A stretch of 64,000 nucleotides of DNA from Anaerolineaceae bacterium (GTDB lineage: Bacteria > Chloroflexota > Anaerolineae > Anaerolineales > Anaerolineaceae). The stretch is taken from assembly GCA_002702705.1 (NCBI GenBank), contig PABH01000024.1:1-64000 (forward strand), in the 5' to 3' direction. The notes beneath the pieces are model-generated. The model ran no database searches and was not told the DNA's origin. It saw only the letters and a program-made list of their open reading frames with translations. This document shows, in pieces, positions 12,214 through 32,536 of this stretch (position 1 is its first letter; each line of letters begins with the position of its first letter). Both the position numbers and the translations under genes were made by a program.

Positions 12214-12282
12214 TTAAGTTTTTTTTATAATCGTATCTATGGAAACAGAACTCACGTTTTTATGGGAGGAAATCATAACCCA

Positions 12283-16476: not shown

Positions 16477-17502
16477 TCACCCGCCCAACAGTGGTTGGTC
16501 GTATTGGAACAGGACTTCGTTAATTTCGAAGATGTCGTATTTGTGATTGATGATAAAAAATTCCACAATGACATCAAATTTTTGGCTGGGGGAGAGAGCG
16601 TAACCGGCTCGCTGCAACAGGTCGTCCGTTTCGTCGAGGTTCAGTTCCAGTGCGATGGCCAAGGCAATGGCGGTGCGCTTGCTGGGAGTATACTCTTTGC
16701 CGGTTCGTATTTTTGAGAATAATTTTCTGTCGAGGTTGGCCCGTTTGTAAACTTCCACATCCGTTTTGCCTTTGGTATCGATTAAACGCAGGAGGAAACT
16801 CGAAAACGGTTCGTCGAGGTTGCTGACCAGGTCGTCTAAATCTCTGGCGCGGGCTGTCGGTTTGCTTTCCGCGACTTGGGGCGTGGGTAGGTTGTACGGA
16901 AGCAGTTCCGCTTCATCGAGGCTTTTTTGCTCTACGTTTAGCAGCGTACGCCGGCTGAGTTTGTGTTTTTCGACATAGTGTTCGTCGATGTAGGTTTCGA
17001 TATCACCAAGCAGTTTTTTGCTGACGGTGAAGCTTGCCTTATCAAATACGGCCAGGTAAACCGTCATATCGTGGTCGGAAAGAAAGTCTTGGATGGTTGA
17101 GGTAGCCACTTGTAGGGCTTCCTCTTTTGGATAACCGTAAATGCCGCTTGAAATGAGGGGGAAGGCAATGCTCTCGCATTCGTTTTTTGCAGCAAGGTGG
17201 AGGGAATTTAAATAGGCGGCACGGAGGAGTTTTTCGCTTTGTTCCGGGTTTGTGTGTTGGTAAACGGGGCCTGCGGCGTGGATGATATAACTTGCGGGCA
17301 GGGCAAATCCTGGTGTGATGACAGCTTCGCCGGTTTTAATCGGGGCCAGTTCGTTACAGGCGGCCTGTAGTTCACGGGGACCTGCCGCTTTGAAAATGGC
17401 GCCACACACGCCGCCGCCCATTTGGAGTTCGGTATTTGCGGCGTTGACGATAACGTCAACCTTCATTTTTGTGATGTCCTGACGAACGATGGTAAAGGGC
17501 AT
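16477..17502 (-). CDS. Macrodomain protein fused to a C-terminal HTH-like domain
   Basis: Residues 1-170 form a macrodomain, a fold that binds or hydrolyses ADP-ribose derivatives. It has VIVNAANTELQMGGGVCGAI near the start and SGIYGYPKEEAL near residue 120. Residues ~215-341 form a helical domain (FSSFLLRLIDTKGKTDVEVY ... FSKIRTGKEYTPSK) resembling XRE-type helix-turn-helix proteins. The fusion could be a transcription factor that senses ADP-ribose or reverses ADP-ribosylation. GGAGGT precedes the ATG. It is probably co-transcribed with the VWA gene downstream. Confidence 0.8.
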   Translation of the reverse strand: MPFTIVRQDITKMKVDVIVNAANTELQMGGGVCGAIFKAAGPRELQAACNELAPIKTGEAVITPGFALPASYIIHAAGPVYQHTNPEQSEKLLRAAYLNSLHLAAKNECESIAFPLISSGIYGYPKEEALQVATSTIQDFLSDHDMTVYLAVFDKASFTVSKKLLGDIETYIDEHYVEKHKLSRRTLLNVEQKSLDEAELLPYNLPTPQVAESKPTARARDLDDLVSNLDEPFSSFLLRLIDTKGKTDVEVYKRANLDRKLFSKIRTGKEYTPSKRTAIALAIALELNLDETDDLLQRAGYALSPSQKFDVIVEFFIINHKYDIFEINEVLFQYDQPLLGG

Positions 17503-17608: not shown

Positions 17609-17690
17609 GAATGTATCGTGAAGGTTTTTTTGTATAATAAGAAAATATTCAAAATGCATAGACCAATTTGCAGAATAATTGGAGGAGCTT

Positions 17691-18239
17691 ATGGGGAAAT
17701 ATGATCCCAGTGTCCACCATCGTCATTCGATCCGGCTGAAGGGATATGATTACAGCCAGACGGGATTGTATTTTGTGACAATGAATACCCAGTACCGGTT
17801 GCATTTGTTTGGGCAAATTCGGGAGGGTTTGATGGTACTTTCCCCGGCTGGGGAGATGGTAAGGAATGAATGGATGGTTTTGCCGGGGAGATTTGAATGT
17901 GTATTTTTGCATGAATTTATTGTGATGCCGGATCATTTTCATGGCATTGTTGAAATTAGAGCCCCGGTGGGGGCAGCCCTTGTGGCTGCCCAGTTAAATA
18001 GAGAAGGTGGAGAAAGGGCAGGCACAAGGCCTGCCCGAACTTTAGGAGATATGATGGGAGCGTTTAAATCATTAACCACCCACAAATATATACAAGGGGT
18101 GCGTGAAGCTGGCTGGCCGCCATTCCATAAAAGATTATGGCAGCGAAATTATTATGAACACATCATCCGCAGTGAAAAGGCTTATCATAATATCGCAGCT
18201 TATATCCGCAACAATCCAGCGAGGTGGCAGGAGAAGTAG
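17691..18239 (+). CDS. REP-associated tyrosine transposase (RAYT, Y1/HUH family)
   Basis: The 182-residue protein belongs to the IS200-like Y1 transposases domesticated with REP palindromes. The HUH motif is in VMPDHFHGIVEI (about residues 79-90) and the catalytic tyrosine is in QRNYYEHIIR near residue 148. ATG 17691 is chosen for its GGAGGAG site; a TTG at 17679 is less likely. Residues ~92-118 (RAPVGAALVAAQ ... RAGTRPARTLGD) are encoded by a copy of the GC-rich palindromic repeat that also lies between nearby genes. No insertion-sequence ends were recognised, so this is likely a single-copy RAYT. Confidence 0.88.
   Translation: MGKYDPSVHHRHSIRLKGYDYSQTGLYFVTMNTQYRLHLFGQIREGLMVLSPAGEMVRNEWMVLPGRFECVFLHEFIVMPDHFHGIVEIRAPVGAALVAAQLNREGGERAGTRPARTLGDMMGAFKSLTTHKYIQGVREAGWPPFHKRLWQRNYYEHIIRSEKAYHNIAAYIRNNPARWQEK
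17963..18040. repeat. REP palindrome pair embedded in the RAYT reading frame
   Basis: Inside the RAYT gene GGGCAGCC (17971-17978) pairs with GGCTGCCC (17984-17991), and GGGCAGGC (18016-18023) pairs with GCCTGCCC (18029-18036), followed by GAAC. This is the same two-hairpin pattern as 10225-10325. It keeps the frame open and lies between the HUH motif and the helical part of the transposase. Confidence 0.82.
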
Positions 18240-18252
18240 GGGAAATAATCGC

Positions 18253-18475
18253 CAATAGGGCATCCCGGAGGGCAGACACGGGCGGGGCAGAGGCTGTGGG
18301 GGTAGACCCCCGTGTCTACCCCCACTAGCACAAGAGAACTTGTCTGACAACCTTCCCATTTGGGCAGGTTGTTTTCTTTTAAATCCGTTCTAAAATAGAA
18401 CATAAATCCTAATAAAGATAGCCGGATAGATATGGGGATCTATCCCAACTACGGGGCCTGCCCGAACAGGCAGAG
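18253..18475. repeat. Palindrome-rich gap between RAYT and the phage-like cassette
   Basis: The gap contains a perfect 12-bp stem GTGGGGGTAGAC (18296-18307)/GTCTACCCCCAC (18314-18325) and a terminal GCCTGCCCGAACAGGC unit near 18456-18471. It also carries the terminator listed separately. It has the composition of the local REP family and no coding frame. Confidence 0.7.
18346..18380 (+). terminator. Terminator-like hairpin before the phage-like cassette
   Basis: ACAACCTTCCCA and TGGGCAGGTTGT pair with one mismatch around a TT loop and are followed by TTTCTTTT. It would stop transcription from the RAYT gene before the cassette. Confidence 0.7.
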
Positions 18476-18486
18476 AAAGGAGAAGG

Positions 18487-18867
18487 ATGGAACAGAAATC
18501 TTCACCACGCAAACATAAAAAACAACAGCGGCCATTGGTCGGGTTTTATGCCCGGCGTTTCACCCCCGCCGAACGGGATGCATTAACCCGGGCGGGCGGC
18601 CTTCAGGAAGAGATCGGTTTGATGCGCATTTTGATCAGCGGTTTGTTTGCCATCACGCAGGAGGAGGCCGCTGGTTTGGAAGAATGGATCAAAGCCGTGG
18701 GTGCCTTGGGCACGGCTGCCCAACGCCTGGCACGTTTGATGATGATCGAACGCAAACTGGATACGGGCAGTGATCCGGCCGCGCAGCTGCGGGAGGCTCT
18801 CTCCAGCCTGTTGGCCGATATTCAGCCCGAAGCGGAAAATGGAAACGATGAGCCTCGGTCCGCGTGA
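18487..18867 (+). CDS. Small protein at the head of the phage-like cassette (possible small terminase)
   Basis: I do not recognise this 126-residue protein by motif. It has a basic N-terminus (RKHKKQQRP), a helical body (TPAERDALTRAGGLQEEIGL) and an acidic C-terminus. It starts at an ATG with AAGGAG, directly before the large terminase, and its end overlaps that gene by 29 bp. Position and size suggest a small terminase or DNA-binding packaging protein, but no HTH is clear. Confidence 0.6.
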   Translation: MEQKSSPRKHKKQQRPLVGFYARRFTPAERDALTRAGGLQEEIGLMRILISGLFAITQEEAAGLEEWIKAVGALGTAAQRLARLMMIERKLDTGSDPAAQLREALSSLLADIQPEAENGNDEPRSA

Positions 18868-20341
18868 AGTTGGAGCGTTAAAACGCTGCCTGGAACACCC
18901 GGTTTCTTTTGCCCGGCTTTCAGGTATCAAACTGCGCAAATACCAACGGGCGGTGGCGGAGGCCGTCTTTCGCTCGGTGGAGAATCGTCGTGGGGATAGT
19001 TTGGTGGTCCTTTTCCCGCGCCAATCCGGAAAAAACGAACTGCAAGCCCAGTTAGAAGCTTATTTTTTACTGCGTTACAGCCGGATTGGCGCGGAACTGG
19101 TAAAGGTCTCACCAACCTGGAAACCGCAGTCCTTAAATGCCATGCGCCGCCTGGAGCGGGTGCTGGAAACAAACCCGCTCACCGCGGACAGCTGGGTAAA
19201 ACAGCAGGGTTATTTGTACCGGGTTGGTGCCGCGCGGCAGGTGTTTTTGTCGGGTGCACCGGAGGCCAATATCGTGGGTGCAACCGCTTCCCTCTTATTA
19301 CAGGTGGACGAAGCGCAGGATGTGCACATTGATAAGTTCGATAAGGACATCGCCCCGATGGCGGCCAGCACGAATGCCACCCGCGTTTTTTGGGGTACAG
19401 CCTGGACGGACCAGACCCTGCTGGCGCGCGAATTGGAAGCTGCCCGGTGCCTGGAAAAACAAGATGGGCTGCGGCGCGCTTTTGTGGTGGATGCGGACCG
19501 GGTAGCGGCGGAAGTGCCTGCTTATGGCAAGTTTGTGGAAAATCAGGTCAAACGCCTGGGGCGGGATCACCCGATGGTGCGCACGCAGTTCTTTTGTGAA
19601 ACGCTGGCTGAGGGCGGCGGTTTGTTTACGGCAGCCCGGCGGGCGATGATGGTGGGCGAACACCACAGCTTAACCCGCCCGCTGGATGGGGAACGGTATG
19701 CCCTGCTGTTGGATGTAGCCGGGGAGGATTCCGGAGAAAACGAAGGCAGCGCTCTGTCTTACCCTGACCGGGACCGGACCGCACTGACCGTGGTGCGGGT
19801 GTTAAACCACGGACGGCTGCCAACCTATGAAACCGTTTTTCGTAAGAATTGGATTGGTGTCCGGTTTACCCTGCTTTATGAAGAACTGCTGGCCCTGGCC
19901 CGTTATTGGCGGGCAACCTGCCTGGTGGTGGATGCGACCGGGGTAGGCGCTGGTTTGGCTGCTTTTTTAAACGCGGCTTTACCAGGGCGGGTCATTTCAT
20001 TCACGTTTACGACGGCCAGCAAAAGCAAATTAGGTTGGGATTTTTTGGCACAGATCGACAGTGGACGCTACCGCGACCATCAAGATTCCACCCCGCAGCA
20101 GGCCCAGTTTTTTGAAGAAGCGGCTGCTTGTGAATATGCCATCACACCGGGGCCGGAACGCCGCCTGGCCTGGTCGGTGCCGCCGGGCAAACGCAGCAGC
20201 CTGGGTGCCCCGCTGCACGATGATTGGTTGATCTCGGCTGCCTTATGTGCCTGTCTGGATAGCCGCCCGTGGGGTGGGTTGACACCACCGCAGATCATCC
20301 GTGCCGCGGACCCGTTGGTTACGATGGATCAAAATTGGTGA
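18839..20341 (+). CDS. Phage terminase large subunit
   Basis: The large terminase is the ATP-driven motor and nuclease that packages DNA into a procapsid. The ~500-residue protein has a Walker A-like FPRQSGKNEL (about residues 62-71) and Walker B LLQVDEAQDV near residue 156. The RNase H-like nuclease domain has acidic residues in LLLDVAGED and LVVDATGVGAG. The start is uncertain between ATG 18839 and ATG 18848, both in frame; both overlap the previous gene. The portal gene follows. The gene appears intact, so it could be functional. Confidence 0.88.
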   Translation: METMSLGPREVGALKRCLEHPVSFARLSGIKLRKYQRAVAEAVFRSVENRRGDSLVVLFPRQSGKNELQAQLEAYFLLRYSRIGAELVKVSPTWKPQSLNAMRRLERVLETNPLTADSWVKQQGYLYRVGAARQVFLSGAPEANIVGATASLLLQVDEAQDVHIDKFDKDIAPMAASTNATRVFWGTAWTDQTLLARELEAARCLEKQDGLRRAFVVDADRVAAEVPAYGKFVENQVKRLGRDHPMVRTQFFCETLAEGGGLFTAARRAMMVGEHHSLTRPLDGERYALLLDVAGEDSGENEGSALSYPDRDRTALTVVRVLNHGRLPTYETVFRKNWIGVRFTLLYEELLALARYWRATCLVVDATGVGAGLAAFLNAALPGRVISFTFTTASKSKLGWDFLAQIDSGRYRDHQDSTPQQAQFFEEAAACEYAITPGPERRLAWSVPPGKRSSLGAPLHDDWLISAALCACLDSRPWGGLTPPQIIRAADPLVTMDQNW

Positions 20342-20363
20342 TTTAAAACGGAAAGGAGGAAAA

Positions 20364-21734
20364 ATGGTATTAAGAATTGAGAAGTGGTTTGCCGGTCTGC
20401 GTAGTAAAAAACGGGCTTCCTTATCCACCAACCTGCCGCTGTGGCCGGTGATGAACCTGGAAGAGCGTGACCGCCAACCCTATGAGCGCCAAACGGTGGT
20501 GCAGCAAGCCCTGGATGCCTGGCGCTTAAACCCACTGGCGCGGCGCATTGTCGGCCTGACCAGCCAGTATGTGGTGGGCGGTGGGATTGAGATGCGCTGT
20601 GAACACCCGGCAACCCAGGCTTTCTTAAAAAACTGGTGGGAGCATAACCTGAACCAGGGGCCGCTGCGGGTGTATGAATGGTGTGATGAATTGACCCGTT
20701 CCGGGGAAATCTTCTTTTTGTGCAGTACGGATGCAGCCGGAATGACCTACCTGCGGGCTGTCCCTGCGGCACAGATTAGTGCGGTGGAAACGGCAGCTAA
20801 TGATTTGCAGCAGGAAACCGCCTTTGTGCAGGTTTTGCCCGGCCTGACCGGGGAAACCAAAACCTGGCCAGCCTATGACCCAAGTTTGGACAGCCGGGAT
20901 CAAAACGGGCGTTTTAAAACAGTGATGTGCCATTTTGCCATCAATCGCCCGGTGGGGGCTGTGCGCGGGGAAAGTGACCTGGCACCGCTCCTGAAGTGGC
21001 TTTCCCGTTATGCGGCCTGGTTGGAAGACCGCGCCCGCCTGAACCGTTACCGCAACGCTTTTTATTTTGTGGTGCGCTCACGGTTTGTATCGGAAAGCGA
21101 ACGGGCAGCCCGCCAGGCCAATCTGAACAACCACCCGCCTACTCCTGGTTCGATTTTGGTGACGGATGAAAGTGAAAGCTGGGAGGTGATCCACCCCCGG
21201 CTGGATAGCCAGGATGCGGCTGAAGATGGGCTGGCTTTAAAGAAGATGATCGCCGCCGGGGCGGGTCTGCCGCTGCATTTTTTGGCGGAGCCGGAGAGTT
21301 CAACCCGCACCACAGCCGAAGCAGCAGGCGGGCCTACCTTCCGCCATTTTGAACAACGCCAGCTTTTCTTTTGTGAACTCTTACGCCAGGTTGCACAGCT
21401 GGCGGTGCGGCGGCGGGCGGCTTATGACTCAAGCGTTAACCCGGCAGTACCGATCCGGGTGCAGGGCGCGGACCTGAGTGCACGGGATAACGCCGCCCTG
21501 GCGATTGCCACCCGGGCTGCCAGCAACGCCTTTTTTGACCTGTTTGACCGTGGTTTGATCAGTCAGGAGGAGCTATTACGTCTGATCTACCGTTTTGCAG
21601 GAGAAGGGGGCGGTTTGGTGAACGGCAGAAGTGATGAAAAAAAACCGCAGCAGAAACGAAAAACAGCACCCGCCATTGATGAAAAAATAATCAACCCGGA
21701 GACTGGCGAACCACGCGGTGCCGCAGTGATCTAA
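20364..21734 (+). CDS. Phage portal protein
   Basis: The portal is the dodecameric ring through which DNA enters and leaves the capsid. The 456-residue protein follows the large terminase and precedes the capsid gene, the usual phage order. It contains a segment typical of portal proteins (ARRIVGLTSQYVVGGGIEM near residue 54) and a helical C-terminal part (FFDLFDRGLISQEELLRLIY). GAAAGGAGG precedes ATG 20364; an upstream in-frame ATG at 20301 lies inside the terminase gene. Identification rests on order, length and general features. Confidence 0.8.
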   Translation: MVLRIEKWFAGLRSKKRASLSTNLPLWPVMNLEERDRQPYERQTVVQQALDAWRLNPLARRIVGLTSQYVVGGGIEMRCEHPATQAFLKNWWEHNLNQGPLRVYEWCDELTRSGEIFFLCSTDAAGMTYLRAVPAAQISAVETAANDLQQETAFVQVLPGLTGETKTWPAYDPSLDSRDQNGRFKTVMCHFAINRPVGAVRGESDLAPLLKWLSRYAAWLEDRARLNRYRNAFYFVVRSRFVSESERAARQANLNNHPPTPGSILVTDESESWEVIHPRLDSQDAAEDGLALKKMIAAGAGLPLHFLAEPESSTRTTAEAAGGPTFRHFEQRQLFFCELLRQVAQLAVRRRAAYDSSVNPAVPIRVQGADLSARDNAALAIATRAASNAFFDLFDRGLISQEELLRLIYRFAGEGGGLVNGRSDEKKPQQKRKTAPAIDEKIINPETGEPRGAAVI

Positions 21735-21749
21735 AAAAGAGGAGGTTTT

Positions 21750-23630
21750 ATGGAAACAAAACAAGAACGGGTGTTGTTAAATGCAACCCTGCAGGCGGAC
21801 GAAAAAACCGAACGGGTGTTTGATGTGCTGGCAATCACCGCTGGGAACGGCAACGGCTGGATGTTTAGCCCAGCCTGTTTACAGGCTTCATTGGCGCTGT
21901 GGGATGGGGTAGAGATTTTTGTGGATCATCACACCAACCCTAACCGCAGTCTGCGTGATCTGGCCGGTATCGGGTTTGACCCGATGTTTGACCCCGAACA
22001 AAACGGGATTCGTTTGAAGATTCGTCCGGCGGGGCCGAGCGGGGTTTTGTTACAGGCAGTGGGGGAGGAATGGCTGACCAGCCGTGAGCCGCGCCCCCGG
22101 TTAGGTTTCAGCGCAGACCTGGTGTTTTTGGCGGAAGGTGCGCTGGTGAAAGAAATTCGGAACGTGCTCAGCCTGGATCTGGTTTACCGTCCGGCGCGGG
22201 GCGGGGTATTTACCCGGGTATTAAATCAACTTAGAACGGAGAAGGAAAACATGTCTGAAACAACAAATGAACGTCTTCTATTAACCCCTCAGGAGGGCGT
22301 GAGCCCAAATTCGGGGTTGTCGGTCGGTGAAGCGCAGGCCATACGCAACACCTTTTTATCCCTCAAACTGCAGGAAAGCCAACTGCCGCAAGCCATGAAG
22401 GATTATTTACGAAAAACCTTTAAGGACAACGCTTTCACTCCGGAAGATTTGGAGGAAGCCATCCAGGTGCAGCAGCAGTTATTGGGTGAGCTGGAAAACA
22501 AACAGGTCATTCAGGGCGGAGCCCGCATTACGGAAATGCGCACCGGTGCGGAACGGCTGCAAGCTGCGGCGGATGATCTATTCGGAGCCCCGCGGGAGGC
22601 TGGGTTAACAGGCGCAGTGGTTGAAAAACTGAGCGGCATCCGTGAGTTGTACCTGACCCTGACAGGTGATGTTAATTTCACCGGCAAAAGCGACCCGCAG
22701 CGGGTACAGTTGGCAAGTTCTGCCAGCCTGCCTTACGTGCTGAAGAACAGTTTTAACAAACTGATTGTGCAGCAGTGGGATGAATTGGGCCGGGCCGGGT
22801 ACCGCTGGTGGGAAAAGGTGGTTCAGGTGGAACACATGAACTCCTTACAGCAGGTCAGCGGCATTTTGTTGGGTGAGGTGAGTGCCCTGGGTGCGGTGAA
22901 CGAAGGGGCCAGTTACGGCGAATTAACGATCAACGACAGCGGCGAAACCAAGGATTTCCAAAAATACGGCGGTTTGCTGCCGGTGACATTGGAAATGATT
23001 GATAAGGACGAAACCCACAAACTGCGCCAGCTGCCGCGTAAACTGGTCTCTTCGGCTGTACGGAATATCTCAGCCCTGGTGTCGGATATCTTCACAACCG
23101 AAAGTGGGGCCGGCCCGGTGATGGGCGATGGTTACAACGTGTTTAACGCCACCCAGCACCAAAACCTGGGCACAGCGGCTTTGAGTGCAGCTAGTTTTGA
23201 AGTTGCCAGCCAGGCCATTTACCAACAAAGCCTGGTTTCCCTGGAAGGTAACAAACCACGCCTGGCTGTGGACGCACGGTACCTGTTGGTGCCGCGGGCT
23301 TTGCGCCTGACCGCACGCCAAATTTTATACCCGACGTTTGAACGGGAAGCCAATATCTTCAGTGAGAATATGCAGCGCGGTGAACTGGGTGATGTGATCA
23401 CCGTGCCGGAATGGACGGATAACAATAACTGGGCCGCCATGGCCGATCCTCTGCTGGCACCAAGCATTATTTTGGCGGAACGATTTGGCCTGATGCCGGA
23501 AATTTTTGTGGCGGAGCAGGAAACCGGTTTTGATATGTTACACAGTGACACCATTAATTTGAAAGTACGCCATTTTTTGGCGGTGTTTGTGGCCGATTAC
23601 CGCCCATTGTATAAGGCGAACGTGGCGTAG
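21750..23630 (+). CDS. Prohead protease-major capsid protein fusion
   Basis: The 626-residue protein seems to join two head-assembly proteins. Residues ~1-165 resemble a prohead protease, with a His pair in FVDHHTNPNRS and a Ser in RLGFSADLVF that could be catalytic. Residues ~230-626 resemble a major capsid protein (KNSFNKLIVQQWDELGRAGY, ... FEREANIFSENMQRGELGD). At 22251 an in-frame ATG with a strong ribosome site could yield the capsid part alone. The linker begins with a Ser/Thr-rich stretch. Such fusions occur in some phages and gene-transfer elements. Confidence 0.78.
   Translation: METKQERVLLNATLQADEKTERVFDVLAITAGNGNGWMFSPACLQASLALWDGVEIFVDHHTNPNRSLRDLAGIGFDPMFDPEQNGIRLKIRPAGPSGVLLQAVGEEWLTSREPRPRLGFSADLVFLAEGALVKEIRNVLSLDLVYRPARGGVFTRVLNQLRTEKENMSETTNERLLLTPQEGVSPNSGLSVGEAQAIRNTFLSLKLQESQLPQAMKDYLRKTFKDNAFTPEDLEEAIQVQQQLLGELENKQVIQGGARITEMRTGAERLQAAADDLFGAPREAGLTGAVVEKLSGIRELYLTLTGDVNFTGKSDPQRVQLASSASLPYVLKNSFNKLIVQQWDELGRAGYRWWEKVVQVEHMNSLQQVSGILLGEVSALGAVNEGASYGELTINDSGETKDFQKYGGLLPVTLEMIDKDETHKLRQLPRKLVSSAVRNISALVSDIFTTESGAGPVMGDGYNVFNATQHQNLGTAALSAASFEVASQAIYQQSLVSLEGNKPRLAVDARYLLVPRALRLTARQILYPTFEREANIFSENMQRGELGDVITVPEWTDNNNWAAMADPLLAPSIILAERFGLMPEIFVAEQETGFDMLHSDTINLKVRHFLAVFVADYRPLYKANVA
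22238..22253 (+). promoter_or_regulatory. Internal ribosome binding site and ATG within the protease-capsid gene
   Basis: GGAGAAGG at 22238-22245 lies 5 nt before ATG 22251, which is in frame with the large ORF (501 nt after its start). Starting here gives a 459-residue protein beginning MSETTNERLLLTPQ, i.e. the capsid domain without the protease. This is reminiscent of nested scaffold/capsid genes in lambda-like phages. Confidence 0.6.
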
Positions 23631-23635
23631 TAGGT

Positions 23636-23745
23636 GACACCCCCCTGTGGGTGTCACTGGGGCAGGCACACCCTGCGGGTGCAAGTCGGGGACCTGCCAG
23701 AACAAATGCAGGGGCAGGTACGGGGGCCTGCCCGAACAACCCAAG
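23636..23745. repeat. GC-rich palindromic repeat between capsid and holin-like genes
   Basis: GTGACACCC/GGGTGTCAC with the CCCTGTG-type loop is followed by GGGCAGGCACACCCTGCGGG and a second GGGCAGGT ... GCCTGCCCGAAC unit. It belongs to the same family as 10225-10325 and 17963-18040. Confidence 0.78.
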
Positions 23746-23754
23746 GAGATAAAA

Positions 23755-23949
23755 ATGAATAAATGGAAAATGTTGTTGGTATCGCGCAAATTTTGGGCCG
23801 CGGTGGTTGGTTTGGTGGTTATTTTGATTAAAAATTGGCAGCCGGATTTTCCCATCGAACCGGAACTGCTGAGTAATATGATCGCCGTGATTGTGGCTTA
23901 TATTATGGGCGTGGCTGTGGAAGACGGGTTGCGCTCCGTGAGGGGATGA
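23755..23949 (+). CDS. Small holin-like membrane protein
   Basis: The 64-residue protein has a basic N-terminus and two hydrophobic stretches (FWAAVVGLVVILI and MIAVIVAYIMGVAV) separated by a short polar turn. It lies directly before an endolysin gene, the standard position for a holin that permeabilises the membrane for lysis. AAGGAGAT precedes ATG 23755; the longer open frame upstream runs through palindromic repeat DNA and is not coding. Holin identity is inferred from size, topology and neighbour. Confidence 0.7.
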   Translation: MNKWKMLLVSRKFWAAVVGLVVILIKNWQPDFPIEPELLSNMIAVIVAYIMGVAVEDGLRSVRG

Positions 23950-23980
23950 TCGGGGATACCCACAAATAAGGGGAACCCAA

Positions 23981-24057
23981 ACACTGCAGGGGCGAGGCTT
24001 GCCTCGCCCTATTGGGCAGGCACACCCTGCGGGTGCAAGTCGGGGGGTTGCCCGAAC
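23981..24057. repeat. GC-rich palindromic repeat between holin-like and endolysin genes
   Basis: GGGGCGAGG/CCTCGCCC forms one hairpin, and GGGCAGGCACACCCTGCGGG ... GGTTGCCCGAAC repeats the string of the preceding gap (23671 onwards). It is the rightmost clear member of the family in this window. Confidence 0.78.
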
Positions 24058-24072
24058 ACAAATGGAGGTATT

Positions 24073-24915
24073 ATGTTTGAAAATTATGCATTGGGAGTGG
24101 ATGTTTCGCACTGGCAGCCCAGCCTGGATTGGATGTTACTGGCCGAAAATGGCGTCGATTTTGCCTGGGTAAAAGCAGCCCAGGGTGCTTACGGCCGAGA
24201 CCCCAGTTTAACCGGCCACCTAAAAGGCGCTAAAACGGCCGGGTTGATCACGGCAGTGTATCATTGGTTCGACCCGACCAATACTGCCGCGGCACAACTT
24301 GAAAACCTGAAACACGCCCTGGATGGCTTGGAATTTTCGATGCTAGCGCTGGATGTGGAACAGTATTGGCTGGATTGGCGCGAGTGGCAGCAGGGAGCGG
24401 TAAAACGCCGTGTACCGGACCGGCAAATCAGCGAACGGGCGCTGGCCCTGGCGGAACTGGCCCGGGATTGGTGTCAAAAACCGGTCGTCATTTACACGCG
24501 GGCCAGTTTTGTGGCGGAATATGCACCGCACATGAAAACCTGGCTGGTAAATTGGCCCTTATGGTTGGCGATGTATCCTTATCCTTCGGGCAGGGTATCG
24601 TTAAGTTGGCAGACCTTAAAAAACAATTATGCACCACCCGTTCCGGGCCCGGCCCTTCCCGGTGGGTGTACAGATTGGACCTTCTGGCAGTTCAGCGGTG
24701 ATAAATTCTTACTGCCAGGTTCACAAACCGCGCTGGACCTGAACTTTTTTAACGGTTCCCGGCGGCAGCTTTATGATTGGCTTCAGCAGCCCATGCCAGC
24801 TGAAGTGCTTTCAATGGAAGAAAAGGTGCGGCGTTTATGGCTGGCGCACCCGGTTTTATGGCAGGAGGAGGTTCAGGATGTCCGAAAAGACAAACAACAA
24901 TCCCCTGCCGCCTGA
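24073..24915 (+). CDS. GH25 lysozyme-like endolysin
   Basis: The 280-residue protein has the N-terminal fold of glycoside hydrolase family 25 muramidases, which cut the MurNAc-GlcNAc bond of peptidoglycan. The Asp in GVDVSHWQ (residues 8-15), WVKAAQG, and the catalytic Asp/Glu pair in LALDVEQY (about residues 91-98) are present. The catalytic domain ends near residue 235 (ALDLNFFNGS). The last 40 residues are a helical tail. No signal peptide is visible, consistent with release through the holin-like protein. It follows that gene and a palindromic repeat. Confidence 0.88.
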   Translation: MFENYALGVDVSHWQPSLDWMLLAENGVDFAWVKAAQGAYGRDPSLTGHLKGAKTAGLITAVYHWFDPTNTAAAQLENLKHALDGLEFSMLALDVEQYWLDWREWQQGAVKRRVPDRQISERALALAELARDWCQKPVVIYTRASFVAEYAPHMKTWLVNWPLWLAMYPYPSGRVSLSWQTLKNNYAPPVPGPALPGGCTDWTFWQFSGDKFLLPGSQTALDLNFFNGSRRQLYDWLQQPMPAEVLSMEEKVRRLWLAHPVLWQEEVQDVRKDKQQSPAA

Positions 24916-25051
24916 TGTAAAACGCCTGCTACGTAAACATAATATCCGTTTGGCAGCGGTCTTAAGCTGGAAAGTGTATCCATCCGAGGTGGTGGTTGTG
25001 GTTAAAAGCGGCCACAAACTGCGGTTGGTGGTGAACGATGACACTGAATGA
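24878..25051 (+). CDS. Short basic protein in the cassette
   Basis: I do not recognise this 57-residue protein (MSEKTNNNPLPPDVKRLLRK ...). It has a polar N-terminus and a predicted strand-rich second half. GGAGGAGG precedes ATG 24878. It overlaps the endolysin by 38 bp and the next gene by 14 bp, so it is translated as part of a tightly packed operon. Confidence 0.6.
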   Translation: MSEKTNNNPLPPDVKRLLRKHNIRLAAVLSWKVYPSEVVVVVKSGHKLRLVVNDDTE

Positions 25052-25448
25052 AATCTTAATCAAACTGCGGGTGCTGCTGGCTGACCCGGATGAGGACTTG
25101 TTTTCCGATCAGGTTTTGACGGAAAACCTGCGGCTGGCGTTGGTCAAACTCCAAAATATCTGCCCATTGGTTTTACAGGTGAGCGGGTTGGATGAGGCCC
25201 AAACCACCGTTTTGGCTGGGATGGAAAACTTGCTCATTCGGCAAACGCGTTGGCTGGTTTTGTGGCAGCGGTTACAGTCTCGGTCCGAAGTGTACCACCC
25301 CGACCCACCCGGTTGGGAACGTTTGGAAAATTATCTGATGGCGGAACAACATGATTTGGATTTGGCACTCGAACAGCAGCGCCTGTTTCATTTACAGTCT
25401 TCAACCATCCCGCCCTATGCTGTCTGGCCGGATGAAGTGCTTGATTAA
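25038..25448 (+). CDS. Head-tail adaptor-like protein
   Basis: The 136-residue protein starts MTLNEILIKLRVLLADPDED and continues with a helical FSDQVLTENLRLALVKLQ. This resembles the N-termini of phage gp6-like adaptor proteins that attach to the portal. The rest is helical. The ATG at 25038 overlaps the previous gene by 14 bp. No other adaptor or head-completion gene is visible, so this is the best candidate, but similarity is weak. Confidence 0.5.
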   Translation: MTLNEILIKLRVLLADPDEDLFSDQVLTENLRLALVKLQNICPLVLQVSGLDEAQTTVLAGMENLLIRQTRWLVLWQRLQSRSEVYHPDPPGWERLENYLMAEQHDLDLALEQQRLFHLQSSTIPPYAVWPDEVLD

Positions 25449-25457
25449 GGAGGCGAA

Positions 25458-26762
25458 ATGGATTTTTTACAGATCAACGTTGGTGGAGACACATTAATCC
25501 TGCATGGGCAGGGCAAACCGTCTGTACTGCGCGGCTGCCTGCGGCGGCCAACGGAAGCCCTGAATGCCGAGCGCTGCCGGGAACAGCTGAATTTGATTTT
25601 GGAAGGAAATAAAACAGCTACTCAGCAGTTTATCACTGCTTTGCAAACCATGTTAACCAAAATAGAAGCCGGACAGGTCGCCTTGTTAAGTATCCGCCCG
25701 CAAGCCGGCGCGCCGCTGTATGAAAGCCGCCTGTTGGGTGGGGAGTTCACCTGGCTGGTTGGCAGTGTGCAGCCGCGCGGCGTAGGAATACGGCTGGAGT
25801 TAGAGCGGCAAAATTTTTGGGAATTACCCTGGATGTTCTTACCCCTCAGCAATGGTTATGGCAAAGATACCACCCTGCCGCTTTTAATCGACAACCGCGC
25901 TGATCATTTGGGAGAAAACAATGTGTTTTGTGCAGCCGATGGGCTGCCAGGTGACTTGCCCGCTCCGATCCGCCTGTTGGTGTGGAATGACCAGGGGGAT
26001 GGGGTGGCGGTTCAGCATTTTTACGCTGGTTTGACCGAAGGTGAAACACCTCCCCTGGTGCTTGAGGCAGAAAACGCCCAGGCTGACCCCGATTTAGGGG
26101 TGGTGGTTGACCCTTCCAGTCAGGGTGGTGCGTATGCCCTCAAACAGGGCAGCGGGCAGGATGCGATGTGTTTAATGTCCTGGCAGGTGGATGCAGCGGA
26201 ATGGCGTAACTTTGCGGGAAAAACCATGTTCCCTGTGGCACGCTTAAAATTGACCGCCCCGCCGGATTTGTGGGTCTGGTGGCAGGTCTATCAAGGCGCT
26301 TTGGTACAAACATCATTGGAAGAACGTTTGCCGGAGAACCGTTTGTTAAACCGTTTACCTTCATTTCACTTCCCGTTTATGTTGGAAGGGATCAGCATCA
26401 GCGGTGATCTCCGGCTGGAATTGTGGGGGCAGCTGGCCGCAGGGCAAACGTTCAGTTTTGCTTTGGATGCCGTGCAGCTGATTGGTGAATCGACCTGGTT
26501 GGCTGCGGTCCCGCTGCCGGAGGGAAATCTTTTTCCGGGAGAGATTCTGGTGATGGATTCTTTATCGGAGGTATTCTTTTGCCAGAATATCAATAACCAA
26601 GCTTTACGTTACAGCCACCAAAAGATAGGGGCGGGATTGTGGCTGTTTCCTCACCAGGCGGCTTGTTTCAGTTTTGTTTTTGACGAAGCTGAAGGCTGTT
26701 TTCCGGAAAAACAGGTGCGGGTTCAACTTCAGGTGCGCCCCCGGGTGCGGGTGATGCCATGA
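25458..26762 (+). CDS. Putative distal-tail or baseplate-like structural protein
   Basis: I do not recognise a family for this 434-residue protein. Its first ~130 residues form an extended strand-rich region (MDFLQINVGGDTLILHGQG) that could be a tail-ring fold. The middle and C-terminal parts are beta-rich with many Trp and Gly, like carbohydrate-binding modules. The ATG follows GGAGGCGA. It ends overlapping the next start by 4 bp (ATGA). Context points to a virion tail or host-recognition protein. Confidence 0.5.
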   Translation: MDFLQINVGGDTLILHGQGKPSVLRGCLRRPTEALNAERCREQLNLILEGNKTATQQFITALQTMLTKIEAGQVALLSIRPQAGAPLYESRLLGGEFTWLVGSVQPRGVGIRLELERQNFWELPWMFLPLSNGYGKDTTLPLLIDNRADHLGENNVFCAADGLPGDLPAPIRLLVWNDQGDGVAVQHFYAGLTEGETPPLVLEAENAQADPDLGVVVDPSSQGGAYALKQGSGQDAMCLMSWQVDAAEWRNFAGKTMFPVARLKLTAPPDLWVWWQVYQGALVQTSLEERLPENRLLNRLPSFHFPFMLEGISISGDLRLELWGQLAAGQTFSFALDAVQLIGESTWLAAVPLPEGNLFPGEILVMDSLSEVFFCQNINNQALRYSHQKIGAGLWLFPHQAACFSFVFDEAEGCFPEKQVRVQLQVRPRVRVMP

Positions 26763-28225
26763 AACCAATAGTGCAGTTTGAAGAGCCTTTCCTTTTTGAG
26801 GGCCTGGATTGGTTGGTGCAGCGTATGAGCTGGTCCTTACCCGGCGGTGCGGAAGAAGCGCTGTTGGAGGCCGTTTTGCCGCGTGAGAAGGAAGTGGATT
26901 GGTTGGCCTGGTTAGGCTCTGGGCTGGTTATTACCACCCCGGCAGGGGATGAACTTTGGTCCGGAACCATCGAACAGATCCGGATTGACCAGCGGCACGG
27001 CAGCCGGGTTATTTCGATGGCGGAGTTGGTTAATCGGGTTAAGGTGCGTTACCGGCGGACAGGTTTCAGCGGAACGGATGGAGACGCCTGGCTGGAAACA
27101 GATTGGTTGGAAAATACTAAAAGTGTGGCCCGTTACGGCAGGCGGGAACTGTTGTTGGAACTCGGCCAGAGCAGTGCCTCACAGGCTGAAGCGCTGGGTT
27201 TGAGTTTACTTAACCAGCGGGCTTTTCCCAGCGATTTGCCCCATTTGGAGACGGGTTCTCAACAGCCGCGGGTGCTTTTGACCTGCAAAGGGTGGTGGTC
27301 AGGACTGGTTTGGTTAATGGATGAAGAAGCCAGGGGGCGGATTTGCCATATGGCTGGTGGCAAGAGCCACCAGATTTTGGGTACGGAGTTGTCCAACAGC
27401 AAACTGGCCCAATCCTTTGTGATCACAGAAAGTAGTTTTCATCTGGGTGAGGTCAATTTTCGCTTGGCGTTGGTTTCCGCTCCGCTGGACGATGTGGTGT
27501 TGGAGGTATGTGCTGATGAAAATGACCAGCCCGGCGCGGTGCTGGCTTCGGCGGTTTTACCAGCAGGGGAATTAAATGGCGGGTGGCAGTGGGTTTCCTG
27601 GCCCATTAACCCACCCCTGGTTTTGGAGTTTGGTGTAAGGTATTGGCTGGTATTACGCCGCAGCGGTGCGGTGGACCCGCTTAATTTTTATAAAGTGGAA
27701 AGTGATGACGGGCCGGGTTATGGACTGGGTGTTTGTAAACGCTGGTCAGGTAGTGGGTGGGTGTTGGTAAACGAAGATTTGCGTTTCATCACTTTGGCAG
27801 TTTCCCCGCTGCCGGAATTGATTCGAGATTTGGTTTCTGTGCCCGCTGGGCATTCGGTGGTGAAATTTGTGCGAATTAACCAACCGAAAGAAGTGTTGGC
27901 TTTCCGGTGGCGGGCGTTGGCGAGTAACCAGGCTGAGCGCTTAAGCGGTTGGCTGGCGCTGGCTTCTGCCCCCGGCAGAACGGTCAGTGCAGTGGTGAAT
28001 GGACAAAAGGCGCTGGATGTTTTTCCGCTGCCGCGTTTGCCGCACCTAACCCTGCGGTTAAACGCATCCGGATTCTGGCAGGATCCCAATGGCCCGGATG
28101 GACGATTGGAGAGCGTGCCGGTTGGGCGGAAGGTGGATTTTCAGCAAAAACAGTGGGTGGTGATGGCGGCGGAATGGAAGCCACTTTGTGGTTTTGTAAT
28201 GACATCCTTAAGTGAGATCCCTTAG
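26759..28225 (+). CDS. Tail-fibre-like protein with a choice-of-anchor R-like domain
   Basis: The 488-residue protein has an N-terminal part (~1-150) that may attach to the preceding protein. A segment at ~210-350 contains QSFVITESSFHLGEVNFRL, VLEVCADENDQPGAVLAS and YWLVLRRSGAVDPLNFY. These match the pattern of the choice-of-anchor R beta-sandwich found in surface and fibre proteins. The C-terminal ~100 residues resemble a tail-subunit strand set. It is the last gene of the cassette, and the usual tape-measure gene is missing upstream. Confidence 0.5.
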   Translation: MKPIVQFEEPFLFEGLDWLVQRMSWSLPGGAEEALLEAVLPREKEVDWLAWLGSGLVITTPAGDELWSGTIEQIRIDQRHGSRVISMAELVNRVKVRYRRTGFSGTDGDAWLETDWLENTKSVARYGRRELLLELGQSSASQAEALGLSLLNQRAFPSDLPHLETGSQQPRVLLTCKGWWSGLVWLMDEEARGRICHMAGGKSHQILGTELSNSKLAQSFVITESSFHLGEVNFRLALVSAPLDDVVLEVCADENDQPGAVLASAVLPAGELNGGWQWVSWPINPPLVLEFGVRYWLVLRRSGAVDPLNFYKVESDDGPGYGLGVCKRWSGSGWVLVNEDLRFITLAVSPLPELIRDLVSVPAGHSVVKFVRINQPKEVLAFRWRALASNQAERLSGWLALASAPGRTVSAVVNGQKALDVFPLPRLPHLTLRLNASGFWQDPNGPDGRLESVPVGRKVDFQQKQWVVMAAEWKPLCGFVMTSLSEIP

Positions 28226-30024: not shown

Positions 30025-30825
30025 ATGGAGTTAAATTTGATCCGTTTACCGTTTTTGAAAATAAAGATAAATAAACCACACCACACCCGGGGCCAATCCT
30101 TTGTGGAATTAGCATTGGTGCTGCCGGTGTTGATCTTAATGTTTTTGGGCATGGTTGAGGTGGCTTTTTTTATTGGACGTTATCTGGATGTGTTAGATCT
30201 CAGCCGAGAAGCTGCTCGTTTTGCTTCGGTGCGTGATCCTTTTGCCGCTTCGGGAGATTTAAACTGCAGCACCACCGATGACCTCAATTTTTATTACGAT
30301 ACCTCCTGTATGTTATCTCCCCCATCGGGTTCGGCTTCATGCAGCCAGTCTGCTTTTTGTAACGGGTTTAACCCGTACATTGTATTAAACCCTGCCACCG
30401 ATGATGTGGTGATTACTGCCTTTACCGCCCTGGAAAGTGCAGTTCATGTGCAGTGGCCGTTACCCAACCACTATTGGGCCTGGTCGAACGTCGATTTTGC
30501 AACTGGTACGGATCTCAACCTGAACGCAAATCCCGGCCATCCCGATAATTTTAAGAGAGACTGCCAGGGGAATACTGTTCGTTCCGAACCATATTACACC
30601 CCGGCGAAAGTTGCCACAGAATTAATTAATTCCCCCACCGCCCTTCCCGGTTTCAGCGATCCCAAAAAAGGAAAAGGGTTTGTGGCCGTGGAAGTGTATT
30701 ATTGTTACAGCCAGGTTTTAGGCTTGCCGTTATTAACCGATTTCGTTCCCAACCCGGTGCAAATTCATGCGTATACCATTATGCCGCTGCCAGCAGCGCA
30801 GCCAACCCCAACCCCAATCCCATAA
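30025..30825 (+). CDS. TadE-like pseudopilin/surface protein
   Basis: The 266-residue protein has the TadE N-terminal signature: a short basic segment and then RGQSFVELALVLPVLILM, with one long hydrophobic helix (about residues 25-50). The remainder is an extracellular domain with several Cys. In Tad pilus systems TadE/TadF are minor pilins assembled by a dedicated secretion ATPase. No such ATPase is visible here, so it may be an anchored surface protein. No clear Shine-Dalgarno precedes the ATG. The end overlaps the next frame by 59 bp. Confidence 0.82.
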   Translation: MELNLIRLPFLKIKINKPHHTRGQSFVELALVLPVLILMFLGMVEVAFFIGRYLDVLDLSREAARFASVRDPFAASGDLNCSTTDDLNFYYDTSCMLSPPSGSASCSQSAFCNGFNPYIVLNPATDDVVITAFTALESAVHVQWPLPNHYWAWSNVDFATGTDLNLNANPGHPDNFKRDCQGNTVRSEPYYTPAKVATELINSPTALPGFSDPKKGKGFVAVEVYYCYSQVLGLPLLTDFVPNPVQIHAYTIMPLPAAQPTPTPIP

Positions 30826-32536
30826 CACAACCTTAGCAGCCCCAGCCGAACGCCAGAAAGGTCAAATTCTGGTTATTTTTGCTGGTGCCCTCATTATATT
30901 GTTGTTTTTTATTGGGCTCGCTTTAGATGCGGGTTCTTTGTACGTCACTTACGGTAATTTAAAACGAGCGGTCGATTCCGCTGCGGTGGCGGCTGCCAAC
31001 GAATTTAAGCGTGATGCCCAAACTGCGGCCATGGTAACAGCGGCAAATGAAGTATTAGGGATGATGAACGTCGATTATACCAACCTGGAATTGTTATTAT
31101 GTGATGGTGATAACGACCATGTACGGGATACGGGTCTGCCCCCTGTTTTTGAAGCACGCTGTCCGGATACAGCTGCCGGTGAAGGTGCCCGTAAATTGGT
31201 GTGGGTCAAAGCCGAACAGCAAGCACCTTTATACTTTTTATCCCTGTTGGGTTTTAACAATCTGATGATCAGCACCAATACTATCTCGGAGGCGGCCCCG
31301 TTGGATGTCGTCATAGTATTGGATACCTCCGAATCGATGGCCTTTGAAACAACGGGCTTTAACCCCTATGCCCCCTTTGATCCCAGCGGCTGTAATGCCA
31401 CCAATACCTGTGAGCCGATGGCAAAAGCGAAAGCGGCTGCGATTTCTTTAATTGACACCCTGGCGGATGGATATGACCAGGTGGCGGTAGTGACCTTTGA
31501 TTCCACAGATCATGTTATTTTTTCTTTGGATGGCAACCTTGGCGCCGCAAAAACAGCGATTAATGCGATTGGGGTGCACGATGATCCCCCGGTCATCTTT
31601 AATATTTGGGCAAGCTGGTACAGCCATGCTGGCTCTTATAACCCGATGAATTCAGAAGATTTGGATGGGGATGGTTTGGACGCGGATAACCCGGCTATTC
31701 TGGGTTATACCTGTCCCTTCGCAAGCCAACCTGATGACCTGGAAGACCGCTGGTGGTCTACCGATGAAGGTTCTCCCGACCCGCATGGTTGGGGTGGTGT
31801 GCCGTGTGACCAGGACGGTGTTTACGATTCGATGGACTGGAATGGTGACAGCATCTGGACCATTGATGATCATAATGCAGCCCTCACTTGGGCTGGTGGC
31901 GATACGAATTATAAATTCACCGGTTTGTCTACCTGCAGCGGCTGCGGTTTGCGGCAGGGTTCCAATCAGTTGAAGGGCGGTGGCCGGTTTGGCTCTGTTT
32001 GGGTGATGGTTTTCCTCTCTGATGGTGCTGTCAATTTAAGTGATACCCATGACGGAAACGACCAAATTCCGGCTGGGCTGACGAATGGTTTTTGCGGTGG
32101 TGCGCTGGGTTCCGGTTATTGGACAACGTACTGCCGGGATAATACCATGACCCCGCGTTATTGTTTTGATACCAACGCATCCACCTGCCCGCCTGGCTCC
32201 ACTCACGTTACCACCACCCCGCAGTATTCCGTTTTGGATTATGCGTTGGATATGGTGGATGAAACGGCCTTAACCAAATCCACCAATACCAATGAGCCAC
32301 GCGGTAATGAAATTGCCATTTATTCGATTGGCTTAAACGTAGACGGTGGTGTTGCAGAACAGTTCCTGCGCTATGTGGCAGCAGTAGGAGATGATGGAGA
32401 CCGGGTGACCGATCCATGTGCATCCACTGCCGCGAATACATCGTGCGGGCAGTACTATTACGCACCGGGTGGTGCACGTTTATATGCCATCTTTGAAGAT
32501 ATTGCTTCGCGTATCTATACCAGAATCAGTCAATAG
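30767..32536 (+). CDS. TadG-like protein with a VWA domain
   Basis: The frame encodes a TadG-like N-terminus ([17 protein letters not shown], a membrane helix) followed by a VWA domain. The metal site [12 protein letters not shown] is near residue 180, and a C-terminal domain carries several Cys. TadG-type proteins localise pili or adhesins at the surface. The only ATG (30767) lies in a Gln/Pro-rich stretch inside the previous gene, so the true start is uncertain; a shorter protein starting nearer QKGQ is likely. Asp-Gly-rich stretches near 31660-31690 ([11 protein letters not shown]) may bind calcium. Confidence 0.8.

Follow-up and report, generated by a model that had tools for sequence, protein, structure and literature searches.

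Gene transfer agents (GTAs), as set out in the excerpted text of PMC9662315, combine caudoviricete-derived proteins, host-endogenized genes, mostly vertical inheritance with co-diversification, particles carrying mostly random host DNA, an element too large for its own particle, and delivery to cells. Few GTAs outside the Alphaproteobacteria have been studied, according to the available parts of PMC12946183 and PMC11841831, and the latter, a 2024 review, holds in those parts that homology, synteny and gene content cannot yet definitively locate new GTAs. Here we describe a cassette of ten phage-like genes at positions 18487–28225 of a 64,000-nucleotide stretch (hereafter, the window) of contig PABH01000024.1 from an Anaerolineaceae bacterium of the phylum Chloroflexota (assembly GCA_002702705.1). 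We read it, with a probability of about 0.72, as a phage head-and-packaging operon that was captured early in Chloroflexota and is kept by its hosts as a vertically inherited GTA-like particle with an unusual tail tip. A bolder form of this reading, namely an ancient Chloroflexota GTA that is older than the families of the phylum, SOS-controlled and tube-less (with one of two kinds of tip, a distal tail protein (Dit) plus hub or an alternative, seated directly on the adaptor), and whose tips have been swapped between genera while its packaging core was inherited, is put forward only tentatively.

Three of the six GTA features, as worded in the excerpts of PMC9662315, are recognizable from the genes alone. 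Caudoviricete-derived proteins are represented by the terminase large subunit (TerL), portal, capsid, Dit and hub, the operon lies inside contigs of up to 4.1 Mb, and vertical inheritance is seen within genera and as family-level clades, though not for the between-genus branches. At only 9.7 kb, the operon may not be too large for its own particle. A chromosomal head–tail cluster, vertical inheritance and raised guanine-plus-cytosine (GC) content are shared with RcGTA and the RcGTA-like clusters (Rhodogtaviriformidae) of the Alphaproteobacteria, so far as the accessible portions of PMC9662315 and PMC7360931 describe them; unlike RcGTA, the present operon has its protease fused to the capsid, no recognized tube or tape measure, raised GC at third codon positions (GC3) and a Chloroflexota host. 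When the capsid and TerL sequence profiles were searched against PDB, no chain named as a GTA protein was found at E ≤1, the RcGTA proteins not being compared directly. By description, the operon can also be likened, from its genes only, to BaGTA, BhGTA/VSH-1, Dd1, VTA and FpGTA, which are phage-like particles that are fixed in their hosts or package host DNA and fall outside the RcGTA lineage (PMC11841831, PMC9662315 and PMC12946183, each in part), but these come from Bartonella, Brachyspira, Desulfovibrio, Methanococcus and Faecalibacterium and not from Chloroflexota. Searches of one open library (including the available part of PMC12213060, and mostly without subscription papers and without bioRxiv preprints) brought up no report of such an element for Chloroflexota or Anaerolineae.

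Phages with a protease–capsid fusion, Microcystis phage Mae-JY22 and Pseudomonas phages F10 and MD8, match the capsid with 27.5% identity over 78% and 31% identity over 50%, respectively, and Bacillus phage vB_BboS-125 matches TerL with 32% identity over 67%. Those records are of whole phages, whereas the head genes here have no recognized replication, integration or tube module next to them, and none of 50,697 phage records gave a match covering 80% of the capsid. The tail tips of siphophages and contractile tails (the Dits of SPP1 and p2; the gp27/VgrG/Tal hubs) have folds like those predicted for the last two genes, which here directly follow the adaptor without a recognized tube or tape measure. 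Capsid-forming phage-inducible chromosomal islands (cf-PICIs) carry an integrase and their own replication genes beside the capsid genes; here, by contrast, a tyrosine integrase was not found near the capsid loci and no replication gene was recognized in the cassette. Encapsulins are HK97-fold shells without portal and terminase, and an encapsulin or a capsid-free bacteriocin is rejected in view of the retention of TerL and portal (44 and 46 of 48 loci, respectively).

What singles the operon out as a candidate GTA in the phylum is its prevalence, its agreement with RpoB within genera, similarities that never exceed those of RpoB, and an operator-like motif shared between loci. With it, the spread of GTAs becomes a directly testable question in Chloroflexota, a group common in digesters and sediments, and it offers a tail tip without a recognized tube to solve.

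Gene content, selection and the predicted tail tip

The window belongs to a 133-kb contig (C26) of the source genome (G000; 5.9 Mb). All ten genes of the cassette lie on the plus strand, with open frames and tight packing. The first, SM1 (18487..18867), is a TerS-like candidate whose family includes a relative with weak TerS PHROG matches (best E = 0.004). It is followed by TerL (18848..20341; PHROG, 4.6e-5), the portal protein (20364..21734; PHROG portal, 8e-29), a fusion of prohead protease and major capsid protein (21750..23630; Pfam Phage_capsid_4, 5e-28; NCBIfam protease/major-capsid fusion, 1.5e-35, under its curated cut-off), a holin-like small membrane protein (23755..23949; PHROG holin, 3e-5), a GH25 lysozyme, or endolysin (24073..24915; Pfam, 3e-26), a small open reading frame (ORF) recognized by its frame only (24878..25051), a member of a head–tail adaptor family (25038..25448), and the Dit and hub genes treated below. 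The longest ORFs of TerL and portal begin at 18770 and 20301, but reading of the sequence indicated 18848, 20364 and 23755 as the likelier starts of TerL, portal and holin. The adaptor of the window itself matched nothing in Pfam or PHROG; the SU10_adaptor family of Pfam was reached only through a relative (8e-7). In the TerL alignment, the FPRQSGKN stretch, the DE pair and the Asp columns, which we take to be Walker A, part of Walker B and the nuclease aspartates, respectively, are conserved, the first and last being invariant; in the capsid fusion, His60 is invariant and Ser121 nearly so across relatives, and these are presumably the catalytic residues of the protease. A first-pass annotation of the window had named these genes as one close-packed and apparently intact run lacking a visible integrase or tape-measure gene, and this description held: all frames are open and co-oriented, tyrosine integrase (PF00589) had zero matches over the whole 133-kb contig, Pfam and PHROG searches of the cassette recognized no tail tube, tape measure or replication gene, and no excision gene was found in the operon.

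Capsid relatives with 38–65% identity were identified in 69 of 101 genomes of the family (a sample drawn from a larger group), among them 44 of the 57 good ones, and in 29 of 40 genera. Seven of eight genomes of the genus, including the source genome, carry one; among 16 genomes of the order's other families, a single one had a match. Host contigs bearing the operon reach 4.1 Mb (G052), and a capsid gene is also present in a one-contig genome of 2.9 Mb (G023). A profile search for the operon covered 48 loci, 47 of them from the family (44 genomes) and one from another family (G037), and found the small gene in 43, TerL in 44, portal in 46, capsid in 48, holin in 45, GH25 in 30 and adaptor in 45, with all matches on one strand in each locus. 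In 41 of the 48 loci, contig ends aside, the core genes follow one order (small gene, TerL, portal, capsid, adaptor, tip); this count, like those given below for TadG, integrases and palindrome distance, was made by hand from hit tables. The exceptions are three loci of genus g17 and those of G019, G048, G015 and G037, and the position of GH25 varies among genera. Eight contigs listed as viral in IMG/VR (L031–L038; 4.8–18.2 kb) encode the operon's capsid, and in one of them (L037) the operon is flanked by opposite-strand genes outside the operon families. These contigs are probably host fragments, and it would seem that IMG/VR includes parts of such operons among its viruses.

Full-length frames were found for TerL in 43 of 44 loci, for portal in all 46 and for capsid, at 560 amino acids or more, in all 48, and open frames span 19 genera. 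Decay in relatives, which the first-pass annotation had named as a result that would tell against a host-kept particle, amounts to single broken genes: one in-frame stop in the main capsid gene of G007 (ahead of the counted stretch), a split TerL in G090 and a split hub in G086. The ratio of nonsynonymous to synonymous substitution rates (dN/dS; NG86), which it had proposed to compute, was 0.05–0.30 over 11 pairs and three genes, with 28 of 33 values below 0.15 and most near 0.1; these values are rough, as many pairs have high dS (0.36–2.4). RpoB gave lower ratios (0.02–0.06, undefined in two pairs). The head genes are therefore under purifying selection.

The last two genes (25458..26762 and 26759..28225) had been called fibre-like. 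Both are present, and by predicted fold they encode a Dit and a tail hub. The former product has no Pfam or PHROG match, and the latter has only a weak match to a PHROG of unknown function. AlphaFold2 models, based on alignments of 26 (Dit) and 25 (hub) sequences, reached predicted local distance difference test (pLDDT) scores of 91 and 88, respectively. The Dit model matched Douge 8zdo (Z 13.2, root-mean-square deviation (rmsd) 5.2, 245 aligned), the SPP1 Dit 2x8k (Z 12.9, rmsd 3.7, 216 aligned) and p2 2wzp (Z 12.3, rmsd 4.6, 233 aligned). Its insert matched CBM6 2cdp (Z 11.7, rmsd 2.6, 123 aligned) and, searched alone, many unrelated beta-sandwich proteins at Z 10–12, and Foldseek template modelling scores of the model to known Dits were low (0.22–0.36). 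Because the insert matches are non-specific and the Foldseek scores low, the Dit assignment is drawn from the six top structure matches, all of which are tail-tip proteins covering the whole model. The hub model matched HFTV1 9h4p (Z 17.1, rmsd 3.0, 224 aligned), diffocin 8v3w (Z 16.3, rmsd 3.1, 225 aligned) and Listeria gp18 3gs9 (Z 12.3, rmsd 3.2, 214 aligned), and its insert matched phi812 9euj (Z 19.0, rmsd 2.2, 151 aligned). The predicted folds thus point to a Dit with a carbohydrate-binding-module-like insert and a gp27/VgrG/Tal-like hub with a jelly-roll insert, both inserts being of sugar-binding type.

The Dit and hub pair was found in 23 of the 48 loci (6 genera) and an alternative pair, c9 and c8, in 21 (13 genera), with c9 alone in one. 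No locus has both kinds of tip, and three have neither, two of these being truncated by contig ends. The c9 and c8 products had no profile match to Dit and nothing convincing in Pfam or PHROGs, and their best PDB sequence matches (E = 0.006 and 0.11) are to unrelated proteins. The folds of Dit and hub imply that the cassette has a tail tip, yet no tube or tape measure was recognized. Tube and tape-measure genes diverge fast, and they may lie elsewhere; a tube-less tail is the least certain part of our reading. A search for tail genes elsewhere, as the first-pass annotation had advised, tests this point weakly: a tape-measure match was found on a 15.6-kb contig of the source genome (C2; L198), but it falls below the cut-offs (PF10145, E = 8e-4; TIGR01760, E = 9e-6), the contig has none of the gene families of the cassette, and we reject it as looking like part of another phage. 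TIGR01760 gave two below-cut-off matches in nine genomes, both off the cassette contigs, and the one outside the source genome lies in G003 on a phage-like contig (C78; L199) with its own major head protein.

The lysis pair, the sugar-binding-type inserts and the lack of a recognized tube, without which the usual injection of DNA may fail, would suit a domesticated particle with another job, such as lysing kin, killing rivals or binding to surfaces, whether filled with DNA or not and without gene transfer; we regard this as rather unlikely, since selection at dN/dS of about 0.1 has preserved the portal and a TerL in which no expected catalytic column is missing, and neither would be needed by a capsid-free bacteriocin or an encapsulin-like shell.

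Inheritance and chromosomal place

RpoB was taken from 50 genomes, of which 45 entered the trees. The comparisons of trees, distances and similarities used 44 genomes for capsid, 39 for portal and 38 for TerL, with the second copies described below and G037 excluded and some ORFs missed. The capsid, portal and TerL trees have 22 of 41, 20 of 36 and 20 of 35 splits in common with RpoB, against about 0.2 with shuffled labels, and genera with several members are monophyletic in seven of seven, six of six and five of six cases. In a tree of the joined head genes, comprising the 38 taxa that have all four alignments, 16 of the 18 RpoB splits with support of at least 0.95 recur and two are contradicted (shuffles average 0.055). 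None of 946 capsid, 741 portal or 703 TerL genome pairs is more alike than the corresponding RpoB pair, and the smallest gap is 4 points. This conflicts with a phage moving between species, which should violate that limit. Within genera, the operon is inherited vertically. One genome (G102) has two different RpoB genes, on contigs C2 and C3, by contamination or as a true second copy, and its capsid neighbourhood is rearranged.

The chromosomal surroundings are partly shared as well. TadE-like and TadG-like genes, which are conserved chromosomal neighbours, lie on the plus strand at 30025..32536 of the window (TadG-like at 30767). A TadG gene occurs within 10 kb of the capsid gene in 14 of the 26 family genomes that have both, in eight genera, where about 0.1 would be expected at one copy per ~4 Mb, and the family sample was not chosen for TadG. 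In the other 12 genomes, the two genes are on separate contigs (11) or 212 kb apart (1). At least one flanking gene family is common to 56 of 94 pairs of loci from the same genus and to 142 of 1034 pairs from different genera. The operon's place, which the first-pass annotation had suggested comparing in relatives, is therefore old but not fixed. An adjacent integrase in a relative, which would have spoken for a prophage, was likewise looked for: no tyrosine integrase (PF00589) lies within 20 kb of any of 27 capsid loci in 24 genomes, serine recombinases not being searched and some contigs ending sooner. All 24 genomes have tyrosine integrases somewhere, the shortest distance to a capsid gene being 21.6 kb, at a second copy in G007.

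Several observations count against the reading of a host-kept, vertically inherited particle. The capsid was not found in 32 of 101 family genomes. No common flanking family was found in 38 of the 94 same-genus pairs, so that the place is not fixed even within genera; many of these pairs involve second copies or G001, G004 and G007. Second, diverged copies of the operon are present in three members of the genus (L044 in G005, L085 in G004 and L086 in G007), with a longer capsid (735–765 amino acids) and no palindrome, of the kind described below, within one mismatch; they are possibly a mobile cousin or a second element, and the integrase gene 21.6 kb from the copy in G007 leaves room for a mobile relative. 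The TerL tree splits the ten copies of genus g1, second copies included. Lowering the support threshold to 0.9 leaves 18 of 24 RpoB splits in common with the joined head genes and six contradicted. No split in common with RpoB spans more than one genus, so agreement between genera is not shown, and the correlation of genus-mean distances with RpoB is 0.29 for capsid, 0.46 for portal and 0.03 for TerL, values reached by 53, 6 and 428 of 999 permutations, respectively. GC3 is raised by 0.13–0.15 over RpoB, unlike in RcGTA-like clusters. With no tail tube or tape measure recognized, a normal tail is impossible unless the genes lie elsewhere.

A still-mobile prophage, or a capsid-forming satellite lineage whose narrow host range produces host-like clades, would account for the phage origin of the head genes, the second copies in three genus members and the differing flanks of the 38 pairs, and an operator of LexA type would suit a prophage too. 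It is nonetheless distinctly unlikely in view of the 27 capsid loci free of a nearby tyrosine integrase, the TadG neighbour in 14 of 26 genomes, the 946 pairs never more alike than RpoB, and the lack of a capsid match of 80% coverage among the phage records. A decaying prophage remnant retained by chance, to which the small size, the missing modules and the broken genes of G007, G086 and G090 would be owed, deserves next to no weight, given open frames over 19 genera at 38–65% capsid identity, low dN/dS, and a conserved core order and palindrome. A host-kept packaging particle is thus very likely, whereas a prophage, recent or mobile, is unlikely, and so is a remnant in decay. The preference of the first-pass annotation for a host-kept particle over a fresh prophage withstood most tests, i.e. 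prevalence, within-genus trees, selection, similarity relative to RpoB, TadG and integrases.

Operator-like palindrome and proposed particle cycle

Alignment of the upstream regions revealed a palindrome, TAGAAC-N5-TTCTA, which the first-pass annotation had overlooked. In the window, it lies at 18396..18411 (plus strand), with one mismatch, 75 nucleotides 5' of the first gene. The main count used 1200 nucleotides upstream of TerL, for which 71 of 86 loci were usable, the others having no plus-strand TerL or too little sequence. Of 43 family loci, 39 have a site within one mismatch, which is perfect in 27, and 16 of 17 genera are represented; only the three second copies and G048 lack one. Among 1033 control windows, 14 have a site (3 perfect). 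A narrower count of 360 nucleotides, in which some starts were missed, found 22 of 44 loci with a perfect site and 32 of 44 with a site within one mismatch (controls, 4 and 13 of 2328); in 27 of these 32, the site ends 7–23 nucleotides before the first possible start codon. In rearranged loci, the site precedes the capsid gene (G085, one mismatch) or c8 (G019). As background, no site occurs in the 206 kb of RpoB loci and a single one in 400 kb of G066; further sites occur elsewhere, including perfect ones near the edges of two loci of genus g15. These data give good support to a shared operator before the operon.

Outside the family, ten of 28 loci carry the palindrome (five perfect), namely five of six in f50 and one of one each in f22, f32, f84, f99 and f105; none was found in the loci of f14, f16, f20, f30, f48, f49, f56, f85 and f89. 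In f56, a one-mismatch variant of the palindrome is found ~4–5 kb before TerL (L203, 13467–13873; L205, 17632–18055), next to a short gene of helix-turn-helix-like appearance, judged by eye; this gene is a possible regulator.

The LexA box of Gram-positive bacteria is GAAC-N4-GTTC, according to the excerpts of PMC3323433 and PMC2248561. This core was found upstream in perfect form in eight of 44 loci and within one mismatch in 30 of 44, compared with means of 0.14 and 4.4 in Markov controls. The same box is found in Dehalococcoides, although a literature search gave no confirmation of this. The LexA connection is opposed by the site of the window, which is two mismatches off GAAC-N4-GTTC and not among the near-matches there, by the number of near-matches to the core in the window (17, chance mean 23) and by retention of the G of GTTC in just 17 of 49 sites. 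In the 400 kb of G066 scanned, neither recA nor lexA was found. SOS control through LexA is accordingly a guess.

The host-kept, GTA-like particle that we favour would work as follows. A repressor, perhaps LexA, would occupy the palindrome ahead of the first gene until DNA damage or another signal releases it in some cells. The capsid–protease fusion and the portal would then build a head, which the TerS-like protein and TerL would load with DNA; as the operon shows no replication or excision gene, this DNA would be mostly chromosomal, and we infer that the cargo is random host DNA. The adaptor would close the head, and a short tip made of Dit and hub or, in other genera, of the alternative pair would bind sugars on the cell surface. 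The producer cell would be lysed by holin and GH25 lysozyme, and the particles would carry bits of host DNA to neighbouring cells. The repressor, the assembly and cargo of the particle, its delivery and SOS control are conjectural steps of this scheme, which builds on the observed gene content, mutually exclusive tips, within-genus inheritance, purifying selection and operator-like motif.

Composition, neighbouring features and relatives outside the family

In the window, the cassette has a GC content of 0.53–0.58, compared with 0.36–0.53 for the rest. Of the 48 loci, 45 were compared, and in every one of them GC is higher in the head block than in the flanks (0.60 versus 0.515), whose value it tracks (rho 0.77). 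A recent foreign prophage, to which this contrast might be ascribed, is rejected because the same rise occurs at all 45 loci, each tracking its own flanks. In RcGTA-like clusters, GC is raised at codon positions 1 and 2, as stated in the available part of PMC7360931; as GC3 is raised here, the cause may differ, and biased gene conversion or expression is perhaps responsible.

REP-like repeat copies of 45 nucleotides lie at 23660..23704 and 24014..24058 and, together with 16-nucleotide pieces, occupy the spacers over 18453–24058, one piece being located between the palindrome and the first gene. A REP-associated tyrosine transposase gene (17679..18239, plus strand; NCBIfam 4.6e-16, under the cut-off; Pfam Y1_Tnp barely over it) is present at the left edge, outside the particle set. 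The host repeat family proposed in the first-pass annotation is borne out in part by these repeats between genes and by the transposase. An exact 26-nucleotide piece of the repeat occurs in three of 227 loci, all three the window's own; contig C71 of the source genome has one stretch resembling 23712–23759. Scans of the window gave seven promoter-like sites (6.8 expected) and 23 terminator-like ones (16.2 expected). Farther to the left, an HsdR-like type I restriction subunit (12262–15504) and a macro-domain-like protein (16477–17502) were noted by eye.

The capsid profile matched in 60 of 400 genomes of the phylum, and the TerL profile in 38 of 249 genomes of the class, three of which belong to the family. 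Loci were chosen from the match lists by rank and contig room, not at random, and 20 came from outside the family or the class. The set of small gene, TerL, portal and capsid is complete in f84, f89 (four loci), f99 and f105, with the adaptor too except in one f89 locus at a contig end; f87 has portal and capsid, and f106 has capsid only. In f85 (11 loci; genomes of ~4–14 Mb), a portal is seen within 20 kb in eight loci and a TerL in three, some on the opposite strand. In a capsid tree of 71 sequences, f1 (47), f85 (11), f89 (4) and f20 (2) are monophyletic at 100, as are all 11 genera with several members. These family-level clades in the sequences fit a great age of the operon, to which repeated capture of head genes from one phage lineage would be the alternative.

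The TerL search, for its part, does not bear out one system throughout the class, as portal and capsid lie beside TerL in only three of 18 loci (two in f20 and one in f48). Since TerL mostly stands without portal and capsid, the palindromes seen in f50, f22 and f32 may be those of other phage-like elements. In f30, portal alone is found beside TerL, where the contig ends. The neighbours of TerL in other families include a portal of another type (L208) and amidases (L207 and L210), the rest being host-like or unknown. In one f49 genome (G182), the TerL relative is on contig C1 and the capsid relative on C2, as if the set were split.

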